Assembly: GCF_024204665.1 (NCBI RefSeq)
Contig: NZ_CP100355.1
Coordinates: forward strand, 1,779,451 to 1,843,450
Direction of reading: 5' to 3'
Length of the DNA stretch: 64,000 nt
Source: Natronosalvus rutilus
GTDB lineage: Archaea > Halobacteriota > Halobacteria > Halobacteriales > Natrialbaceae
The notes beneath the pieces were generated by a model, which saw only the letters and a list, made by a program, of their open reading frames with translations, was not told where the DNA came from and did no database searches. Below are positions 57,294-60,268 of this stretch, piece by piece; the stretch's first letter is position 1; each line of letters starts with the position of its first letter. A program made the translations under genes and the position numbers.

Positions 57294-57857
57294 ATGGCCT
57301 CGAGTGCTCGAGGCAGGGACGAAAACGTTACTATTGTGGACGTACCGACGGAGCGGTAGTCGCTCGTTCGAACGACTGGTCGGGGTGGAATGGGATTCGA
57401 TACCTGATACGGTCGGTTCGCCCTCTGGGTTGCGCCTCGAGAAGGGGATCTGGCGCTCATCTCCAGGTACATGTATTATACAGCATAAACTCGGATGCGT
57501 TCGAACGCGCCAAAATAAACGCTCGAGCGGCGCTCGCCGCGGGGAGCGCGGATAGTCGTTACCGCGCGTAACGCGTGGCGCTCTCGAGCCGCTACTGCGT
57601 CGTCGTGGATCGTACGACGATGGTCGTTCCAGGACACGTACTTCGCGACCGGCGTCGCCCCGACTGGGACGGTCGGTCGGCGCTGTACATTCGGGTGCTT
57701 CATAGCACAGATACTTATGTCACGTGTGAACATAAGACAGTCGTCGACTTCCCGTCGACACAAACGTTTGCTGGCACGAGTGAGAACCCGTTCGCGGAAC
57801 GGCTCTCGTTGGATCCTCCTGGCCCTGTTGAAATCCTCAACCGTTGATAGGAATAGG
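57294..57857. other. Intergenic region with an inverted repeat
   Basis: 564 bases with no supported gene. An inverted repeat CTTATGT (57714-57720) and ACATAAG (57730-57736) surrounds CACGTGTGA, in a promoter-like setting. Open frames here have no recognisable protein signature. Confidence 0.5.
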
Positions 57858-57858
57858 G

Positions 57859-57960
57859 TGCTGAATACAGAGGGTGGGAGAATGGATGCAGCACATTGTC
57901 CTCGTTTATTTCAATCATATTGAATGGAACCAACCGGTACATATGGGTACGAACTGAACA
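57859..57960 (+). repeat. Left-end repeat, copy A
   Basis: It begins TGCTGAATACAGAGGGTGGG and ends its first part with GCAGCA (57893), so TGCTG and CAGCA form a stem. About 65 further bases (TTTATTTCA, GGAACCAACC, TACATA, GAACT) match copy B at 58827-58917. No matching right-end repeat was found between copy A and copy B. Confidence 0.65.
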
Positions 57961-58826
57961 TGCTCCCTAACGAATAGAGGAATTCACAGGGGTGAGCACT
58001 TCTATGATCGTATTGGCCAGACTACCTTGGTGATCATAACCACGACAGCTGTCCGGAAGATGTGTGTAGAGGTGGCCTATGAACGAATCTAGGAAGAGAT
58101 CCTGGAGTGAGTGATTATCGCTCGAGATGGCGTCCAGGACAGAGGGAGGCGTGAGTGGGAGAAAGAGAGTGACCCGAAAAGAGGGAGAAATCACGCTTTC
58201 AAAAGTTCATAATCGGTTTCCGTCTTGCGTTTTTCGGGTTGGCGGTAACCAGGAAGAGAAACACTACGAAGAGAGCCTCAAGCTAAACTCACGGAATCGG
58301 ATTCGGCGGTTTAGAGCCTTCTCTGAAGGGATCTCACTCATTCACTCGAGTCGATCGTAGGCCCAGTCAGCATACGATTCAAAAGTTCATAATCGGTTCC
58401 CTGCTATCGGTTTTGAGGTGCTAGACAGCACTGGAACCACCGATGGGACTGAGATACTTTTCGAGAAGGAAAACACACCATAGAGCGCGTCTCGAACCGG
58501 ATATGGACGTTTGACGCTTCGAGCCCTGCATCTGCTCAGCGAGTACCGACCACCAAATGGACCTCGCTCGCCCATCAGCCCCGGCAATCACTAAAACATA
58601 CGCGAACGCTCCTTAATCGCCTCGAGGGGGCTCTTACTCGGCGATTTGGTCACAAGTTATATGCTCGAGGGAGATCTTCATCGTGAAACCGTTCCTAGAC
58701 TAACTTCATAATCGGCCCTCGAAGAGAGACCAAACCTACTCTTCCGGACGGAAAACCCGATTATGAACCATCTGAAACGTGATTAGTACGTTTTGTTGTA
58801 ATCCTCAGTAGGTTCCAAGAGTTCTC
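57961..58826. other. AT-richer non-coding island with a second repeat family
   Basis: 866 bases with no convincing gene; a 75-codon minus-strand frame (57967-58194) has no known motif. It contains four copies of a GTTCATAATCGG repeat, described separately. Stop codons are frequent in every frame. Confidence 0.55.
58198..58768. repeat. Four copies of the GTTCATAATCGG repeat
   Basis: A 21-base block (TTCAAAAGTTCATAATCGGTT) is identical at 58198-58218 and 58378-58398, exactly 180 bases apart. A third copy (CTTCATAATCGG) is at 58704-58715 and a fourth, inverted (CCGATTATGAAC), at 58757-58768. The last two face each other and bound a 65-base near-hairpin. Confidence 0.7.
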
Positions 58827-58917
58827 TGCTGAATATAGAGGATGGATGCAGCACGGTGGCGCCATTTATTTCACGCACTCAAACCGGAACCAACCGCTAC
58901 ATACGGCTGCGAACTAG
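58827..58917 (+). repeat. Left-end repeat, copy B
   Basis: It begins TGCTGAATATAGAGGATGGA and closes its stem with GCAGCA (58853). It is similar to copy A over about 90 bases and ends exactly at the stop codon of the amphi-Trp gene. Confidence 0.65.
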
Positions 58918-59205
58918 TCACTCGATTTCTAACTGACCGCTCCCGCCGTCCCCCTCATTGCCGTTCTCGTCCCATTCGAGTTCGAACTCGATACTCAATT
59001 CTCCGGGGGCGTCCGTTGGCCCCTCGCGTTCGGCTTTGACCTCAAACGTCGGGCGCGATGGCGGTTCCATTGTCACGGACTCGGAACCGGATTTGAGTGT
59101 GATTGTATCCCCTTGTTCAAGCTTATCAGCGACACTGCGGAGATACGAGGCGATGTCTTCTCGGGTCTGGTCACTCTCTGATTTGAACAGGACTTCTTCA
59201 GGCAT
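58918..59205 (-). CDS. Amphi-Trp domain protein
   Basis: The 95-aa acidic product has EVLFKSESDQTREDIASYLR, VADKLEQGDTITLKSGSESV and a C-terminal ELSIEFELEWDENG, the amphi-Trp pattern of a helix followed by alternating beta strands. The family is small and of unknown function. A CTTATC box about 28 bases upstream suggests a leaderless transcript. The gene lies between left-end repeat B and right-end repeat 1, with its own promoter inside them. Confidence 0.8.
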   Translation of the reverse strand: MPEEVLFKSESDQTREDIASYLRSVADKLEQGDTITLKSGSESVTMEPPSRPTFEVKAEREGPTDAPGELSIEFELEWDENGNEGDGGSGQLEIE

Positions 59206-59269
59206 AATGAACGATACGCTGCCTGCACCGATAAGTGAATCCCCTGTACTGAACGATCACTACCGGCAC

Positions 59270-59313
59270 AATCGAGCCAAATCTCATGCGACATTCGCGC
59301 TCTCTATTCAGCA
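59270..59313 (+). repeat. Right-end repeat, copy 1
   Basis: A 44-base block starting AATCGAG and ending TATTCAGCA. It matches copy 2 (60061-60104) at 36 of 44 positions. Its last bases are the inverse of the left-end TGCTGAATA. Confidence 0.7.
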
Positions 59314-59352
59314 GACGAGATCAGGCTTGGCGAATTGTTGGCAGGAACTGCC

Positions 59353-59379
59353 TGCTGAATATAGAGGATGAGTGCAGCA
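59353..59379 (+). repeat. Left-end repeat, copy C
   Basis: TGCTGAATATAGAGGATGAG and the following GTGCAGCA match copy B at 25 of 27 positions. Similarity fades after this. The gap to right-end copy 1 is only 39 bases. Confidence 0.7.
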
Positions 59380-59535
59380 ACCAGCGATCTCTCGTTTCAG
59401 TCCATCTGAGAGGATCTTAGCGTTCGGTAGGTGGACATATGCATCACTGATCATCGTTTTGGAGGACGAGAACACAGGGTCATAAGGGCGAAATCAAACC
59501 AATACTTTCTCCGTCATCGACAAGAATTCACGTCC

Positions 59536-60042
59536 ATGATGGGGGATGTTTCCATACGGGAGGCGACCAGAGACGATGCAAAAGCAATCAAGCACGTCGC
59601 CCGTGACTCGTGGCACGCGGCATACGATTCTGTGCTTGGGGCAGATCGGGTAGACGAGAAAGTAGAGTCGTGGTACGACCCGGAGCGGCTGGTTACTGAT
59701 GATATCGAGCAGGATGACCGGCTGTTCTTCGTGGCGATCGTCGATGAGACAGTTGTCGGCTTCGTCGAGATGGTTCCCGATGAGTCCGACGACAAGCTCG
59801 CTCACCTCTACCGCATCTATGTCGCTTCTGACTACTGGGGACGAGGAATTGGCAGTTCGCTTCTTGACCACATTGAGACAGTTCTCGAAGAGCAGGGATT
59901 CGACCGGCTCCAACTTTCAGTGATGGCCGAGAACAATGTCGGCGTTAGCTTCTACGAATCCAACGGGTTTCACCGAACCTCGACGACCCACAACGACCAA
60001 CTCGATTTCCAGCAATATGAGTACCTAAAGCACCTGGGTTGA
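59536..60042 (+). CDS. GNAT-family N-acetyltransferase
   Basis: The 168-aa protein has SIREATRDDAKAIKHVARDS, the acetyl-CoA loop RIYVASDYWGRGIGSSLLDH and LQLSVMAENNVGVSFYESNG, all standard for GNAT. The substrate is unknown. ATG codons at 59536 and 59539 are both possible. The gene is the only one between left-end repeat C and right-end repeat 2. The segment 59206-59535 before it holds only the promoter of the amphi-Trp gene and repeat ends. Confidence 0.85.
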   Translation: MMGDVSIREATRDDAKAIKHVARDSWHAAYDSVLGADRVDEKVESWYDPERLVTDDIEQDDRLFFVAIVDETVVGFVEMVPDESDDKLAHLYRIYVASDYWGRGIGSSLLDHIETVLEEQGFDRLQLSVMAENNVGVSFYESNGFHRTSTTHNDQLDFQQYEYLKHLG

Positions 60043-60060
60043 GCGATCACCCCTTACGCA

Positions 60061-60104
60061 AATCGAGTCATATTGCGTGCCACATTCGCGCTGTGTATTC
60101 AGCA
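60061..60104 (+). repeat. Right-end repeat, copy 2
   Basis: A 44-base block starting AATCGAG and ending TATTCAGCA, 18 bases after the GNAT stop. It is the partner of copy 1. Confidence 0.7.
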
Positions 60105-60268
60105 CAGTCGTTGAAAACTATAACTGTGTGGGTATTTCAACAAATATGATAGTACTGCGACCGTCAGTCCTCGCGCTCGAGAGTGAACACCTCGAGGCCG
60201 ACGTCGTCGCTCGGCCTATATGCTGGGCGCTCATCGACGCTACAGAAACGTTGAGGTCGCGGGCGAGG

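Follow-up and report, generated by a model that had tools for sequence, protein, structure and literature searches.

Near one end of the 64,000-nucleotide stretch of Natronosalvus rutilus DNA analysed here (the window) lies an array of two gene cassettes, joined by a 39-bp linker and flanked at both outer ends by terminal repeats (T). The left-end (LE, ~100 bp) and right-end (RE, ~70 bp) repeats are common to all cassettes, and each cassette is delimited by two short sites, S_L and S_R. The array is made up of the following parts:

57820–57858, plus strand: left array terminus T, GGCCCTGTTGAAATCCTCA-N5-TGATAGG..., an IS5-family (ISH1-like) terminal repeat
57859–57960, plus strand: first LE copy (the third left end), an S_L with a short insertion, running into the leader
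57960–58787, plus strand: leader module, non-coding and genus-specific, with copies of TTCATAATCGG
58788–58826, plus strand: 39-bp site of the leader type, ahead of cassette 1
58827–58853, plus strand: S_L of cassette 1 (9-bp arm, spacer TAGAGGATG, inner arm)
58827–59313, plus strand: cassette 1, 487 bp, with a second copy at G000:C2:191676-192162, identity being limited to the cassette
58918–59205, minus strand: amphi-Trp domain gene of cassette 1, 95 aa (PF20068, E 3.5e-38)
59287–59313, plus strand: S_R of cassette 1, TGCGACATT-CGCGCTCTC-TATTCAGCA
59314–59352, plus strand: linker I, 39 bp, joining cassettes 1 and 2; the same length recurs genome-wide
59353–59379, plus strand: S_L of cassette 2
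59353–60104, plus strand: cassette 2, 752 bp
59536–60042, plus strand: GNAT acetyltransferase gene of cassette 2 (PF00583, E 1.7e-21)
60078–60104, plus strand: S_R of cassette 2
60105–60143, minus strand: right array terminus T, inverted; the orthologous terminus is retained in the congener G175

The two repeat-bounded segments had been recognised in a sequence-only reading, and their coordinates and identities are right: the left repeats (28 bp, at 58826 and 59352) are 93% identical and the right repeats (44 bp, at 59270 and 60061) 82%, with five occurrences of the left core in the window against 0.65 expected by chance (up to 3 mismatches) and two of the right core against 0. The cargo was likewise correctly named as amphi-Trp and GNAT genes, as the Pfam matches listed above attest; the GNAT gene probably starts at 59536 or 59539, and its longest open reading frame begins at 59431. 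Beyond that reading lie the third left end at 57859, a leader of ~870 bp, the 39-bp linker and the outer terminal repeats, and the real cassette end, absent from it, is a 27-bp dyad (TGCTGAATA-N9-TATTCAGCA-like). The leader (57960–58826, between the left ends at 57859 and 58827) is conserved and non-coding with repeated TTCATAATCGG, and no meaningful match to the region was found in Rfam. It has 7 copies in the source genome at ~83–85% identity, each immediately upstream of a left end, and further copies in congeners only; being genus-specific, it was ruled out as a universal component of the arrays.

Read on one strand, S_L and S_R are copies of one dyad, oriented alike, with a 27-bp, 9-9-9 layout. 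S_L comprises an arm like TGCTGAATA or TGCRAGATA, the spacer CAGAGGATG and a second arm that is TATTCAGCA-like, and S_R comprises an arm like TGCAAGATA, the spacer CGCGCTCTG and the arm TATTCAGCA. The arms are variable, the spacers are conserved within each class, and degenerate site pairs also occur. The idea that cassette ends carry a direct TA target duplication was abandoned because the variable arms do not retain TA. An 18-bp end motif occurs ~46 times in the 4.31-Mb source genome and not once in a reversed control, and several consecutive cassettes are found on a 127-kb replicon of this genome. Loci fetched from the source genome and its relatives contain 155 pairs of outward-facing neighbours less than 1 kb apart, of which 151 are spaced by exactly 39 bp, all 151 of them running from a right end to a left end; when the 9-bp cores alone are used, this spacing holds for 50 of 52 pairs. 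Gene modules and linker modules alternate along the arrays, the linker module being usually 39 bp long, sometimes ~800 bp with a recombinase gene, and taking the form of IS5-type terminal repeats at the array ends.

A search of 391 haloarchaeal genomes for the joined motif TATKCAGCA-N39-TGCTGMATA, tolerating at most one mismatch, found it in 71 genomes and in 39 of 86 genera, including Natronococcus, Natronolimnohabitans, Halovivax, Halogranum, Halorarius and Haloferax marisrubri, with up to 54 occurrences in a single genome; the reversed control matches one genome. The repeats recognised in the sequence-only reading are part of a large system. Matches outside haloarchaea in a 257-Gb scan are scattered singletons, which we estimate to be at about chance level for an 18-base pattern. 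In viral contigs the pattern has 3 matches. Across 203 cassettes, a single open reading frame is the commonest content and may lie in either orientation (160 versus 142), and the 150 main cassette proteins represent 135 Pfam families, with HTH_10/BAT regulators most frequent, in keeping with the claim that the cargo consists of unrelated single genes. A few cassette proteins match defence families (e.g. mad2), and the smallest cassette (154 bp) is an LE fused to an RE without a gene. Integrase families are missing from the 25 Pfam families listed for the cargo, and an integrase motif scan of the first locus set found none. Such varied single-gene cargo, together with the constant polar 39-bp junctions, favours the earlier suggestion of a haloarchaeal counterpart of a cassette array, or of a non-autonomous element capturing single genes.

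Genes for HalOD1, HTH_10/BAT and DUF7344 proteins are frequent in the cassette cargo, and the proteins of several cassettes match lone defence-system components (mad2, mad3, mad8).

Cassettes can be followed from one context to another. The amphi-Trp cassette is duplicated on replicon C2 between unrelated flanks, and the identity begins and ends within the end site. In cassette pairs from differing contexts, S positions 15–27 are mostly identical, and the outer arm (down to 3/9) and the 39-bp flank change; where the arms are unlike, several independent pairs agree in confining the switch to a 5–14-bp window at the outer edge, and the breakpoints fall, by eye, in CAGAG. With the inner part of S identical and the outer arm and flank switched, the alignments place the crossover in the 9-bp S spacer. 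At the orthologous locus of G175 the flanks are 91–92% identical, and the leader (90%) is retained together with both array ends around different cassettes, four by our reading. Transfer of one cassette between contexts with end-site breakpoints and turnover at an orthologous locus both agree with the cassette-array interpretation; no empty slots or palindromic remnants were found in the fetched loci, and no recombination products or circles were seen. The cassettes could in principle be shuffled without a dedicated enzyme, by gene conversion or homologous recombination acting on the LE (~100 bp) and RE (~70 bp) repeats, as these offer homology common to all cassettes and the source genome has no array-specific recombinase. 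The switches, however, occur in the 5–14-bp outer-edge window rather than anywhere in LE or RE, and many genera have a recombinase gene in the linker slot; of the alternatives weighed here we give this one the least credence. It is also conceivable, if unlikely, that in the same system the recombinase cleaves inside the 39-bp linker, or depends on the entire ~93-bp S_R-linker-S_L junction, with S being merely accessory. The linker sequence is indeed conserved between genera, and linker-like sequence is visible by eye beside both LE and RE of the recombinase module, but the breakpoints are seen in S and none in the linker.

The outer ends of the arrays are IS5-family terminal repeats. The sequence outside the first and last cassettes (GGCTCTGTTGAAAYCCTC...) is inverted between the two array ends, this T repeat flanks single cassettes as well as arrays in the source genome, and the array-end motif is present in 319 of 381 genomes. 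An intact autonomous IS5-family insertion sequence (L220) has the same ends as the arrays and an 8-bp duplication; with this copy found, the IS5 family replaced the IS6 family, which had been guessed as the origin from GGCTCTGTTG and 8 bp. Of 12 end pairs in the source genome, 5 have target duplications of 7–8 bp, among them those of a 9.4-kb multi-cassette array, and the window array has none. Given the same ends on an intact IS5-family element and these duplications, whole arrays are therefore transposase-less IS5-type elements, and they meet the criteria of mobile insertion cassettes, namely the terminal repeats of an insertion sequence, target duplication, passenger genes and no transposase. 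Assignment of the ends to a known insertion sequence, which would have refuted that reading, applies to the array boundary and not to the cassette ends; its alternative of two decayed insertion sequences finds no support. In one further locus (L212:1501-2892), IS5-type ends with the 8-bp duplication GAATAGCT enclose an unrelated 286-aa gene, without a Pfam match, in place of the transposase.

A second IS5-family element, with ends GGCCKTGTTTAGACGC, sits exactly in the S_L or S_R spacer at several loci (G000:C1:2395248-2396181, C1:3190949-3191882, C2:306602-307535 and C1:1305866-1306799), where the 9-bp spacer is now present twice. Elements aimed at attC or res sites insert likewise, and by this analogy the insertions fit S as a putative recombination site. 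Could IS5-type transposition alone explain the arrays, as single-gene insertion cassettes on which ISH1-like transposases act in trans, with tandems arising from adjacent or nested insertion? The IS5-family repeats that close the arrays, the target duplications present in 5 of their 12 end pairs, the autonomous element with matching ends and its own 8-bp duplication, and the breadth of the array-end motif would all be accommodated. The internal junctions, in contrast, are exactly 39 bp without target duplication or a second terminal repeat, cassettes travel without their 39-bp flanks, and the array ends at the G175 locus persist while cassettes change, observations that already weaken this explanation and leave it doubtful.

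Mapping of tyrosine recombinases in array-rich genomes identified two proteins, 234 and 241 aa long, that share 73.5% identity although they come from different archaeal families; both are encoded exactly between a right end and a left end. Linker recombinase genes include those at G175 C1:3020746-3021450 and G209 C23:35038-35763. Among the 29 loci that reach 70% identity or more, which span haloarchaeal genera, we count 20 flanked on both sides, within ~80 bp, by S sites that face outward and 7 flanked on one side, the sites usually being ~780–804 bp apart; the same scan of window positions 1–56000, taken as background, gave no S site. The ~235-aa protein scores 51 bits against PF00589 (cut-off 27), 20.9 against integrase_gron (cut-off 265) and 47.7 against its best model, XerA_Arch (cut-off 220), and in 13 homologues R65, K124, R184, W207 and Y216 are invariant, with H181 in 12. 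The criteria of a tyrosine recombinase (Pfam domain; catalytic R, K, HxxR, W/H and Y) are met by this linker protein, which begins nearly at the catalytic domain and is without the usual N-terminal core-binding domain; its fold model, of moderate confidence (pLDDT 70), best matches XerA. Homologues (E ≤ 1e-30) occur in 80 of 391 genomes, and close ones in 9 of 25 genomes with at least three linkers versus 26 of 366 others (p 1e-4). Many recombinase-bearing genomes have no exact-pattern linker, and a close copy is absent from the source genome and from the array-rich G311, G056 and G264; in this absence the source-genome arrays resemble the integrase-less arrays of integrons. The small linker tyrosine recombinase is probably what moves the cassettes, its activity on S sites being inferred with no reaction observed.

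We consider it likely, though not secure, that the window segment, with its two cassettes, is an array belonging to a site-specific recombination system of haloarchaea, integron-like or dif-module-like, whose gene modules are swapped at S. The array system itself, with its observed architecture, spread, cassette mobility with breakpoints in S, turnover in a resident platform and fixed recombinase position, is well supported, and the recombinase mechanism is inferred. Each gene module lies between two same-orientation 27-bp dyads, S_L and S_R, and the recombinase, acting in trans on arrays without their own copy such as that of the window, would join S_L to S_L and S_R to S_R. A cointegrate would be formed and then resolved, exchanging the gene module and leaving the linkers with each array, and whole arrays would be moved separately as transposase-less IS5-type elements. 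Two constant spacer classes, alternating modules and spacer breakpoints are what this pairing of sites would predict, an inference for a reaction as yet unobserved. Since the S_L and S_R spacers differ, excision of a single cassette through S_L × S_R would need spacer heterology.

The closest known systems include integrons and CALINs (IntI, attC), archaeal integrons among them (PMC9668308), which also form arrays of mostly one-gene cassettes with polar, array-specific junction sequences, a resident platform with cassette turnover, and a tyrosine recombinase in some arrays with many lacking one. The haloarchaeal junction, however, stays behind when a cassette moves, and the linkers differ on both sides of an identical cassette; the cassette genes do not share one orientation (again 160 versus 142), and the ~235-aa enzyme, located inside the linker, is far below the IntI model. 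Dyad S sites, moreover, stand where integrons have attC. The dif (pdif) modules of Acinetobacter plasmids are likewise separate units bounded by short dyad sites, and fall into two alternating classes to which the haloarchaeal gene and linker modules correspond; a module is exchanged singly as a cointegrate forms and is then resolved, through sites whose spacers match (PMC13141974). Their 28-bp site, with two 11-bp Xer arms (XerC/XerD) and a 6-bp spacer, differs from the 27-bp 9-9-9 site, and constant 39-bp linkers and a linker-encoded recombinase in some genomes further separate the two. Mobile insertion cassettes and MITEs of the IS5 family (ISH1-like) share with the arrays the lack of a transposase, the terminal repeats of an insertion sequence and some 7–8-bp target duplications. 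To our knowledge, they are not known as arrays with exchangeable sub-modules.

The haloarchaeal arrays fail the tested defining features of integrons and dif modules, yet work like both. We lean, with limited assurance, towards regarding them as a third, independent gene-cassette platform, with alternating gene and linker modules, two spacer classes of a single dyad site and a linker-borne, catalytic-domain-only tyrosine recombinase. Such a platform would be nested within IS5-type transposons and would distribute single genes among haloarchaeal genera. Integrons in haloarchaea were not reported in the papers found, and halobacteria are not mentioned in that on archaeal integrons (PMC9668308). 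Searches of the open-access literature for gene cassettes or integron-like arrays in haloarchaea turned up no description, although a subscription paper could exist, and the family is apparently widespread and undescribed. Haloarchaea are noted for very high gene exchange. If the interpretation is true, a native cassette system equipped with a small recombinase of its own would provide a concrete route by which single accessory genes (sensors, regulators, acetyltransferases, methyltransferases and defence parts) are captured and shuffled, many orphan genes could be annotated as cassettes, and the compact recombinase would be open to testing in laboratory haloarchaea.

Other tyrosine recombinases are encoded in these genomes. 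Plasmid-borne proteins of 444 and 434 aa (L130/L132) were considered as the array enzyme and rejected because G386 and G175, both array-rich, lack them and array-poor genomes have them. A divergent family of 430–450-aa plasmid tyrosine recombinases (G000:C3:5104-6432 and C2:338324-339559), under the Pfam cut-off, is widespread in haloarchaea. Orthologous 350-aa tyrosine recombinase genes (G000:C1:3302174-3303226 and G175:C1:3514154-3515206) stop ~13 bp before an array terminus, and the cassettes beyond this terminus differ between the two genomes.
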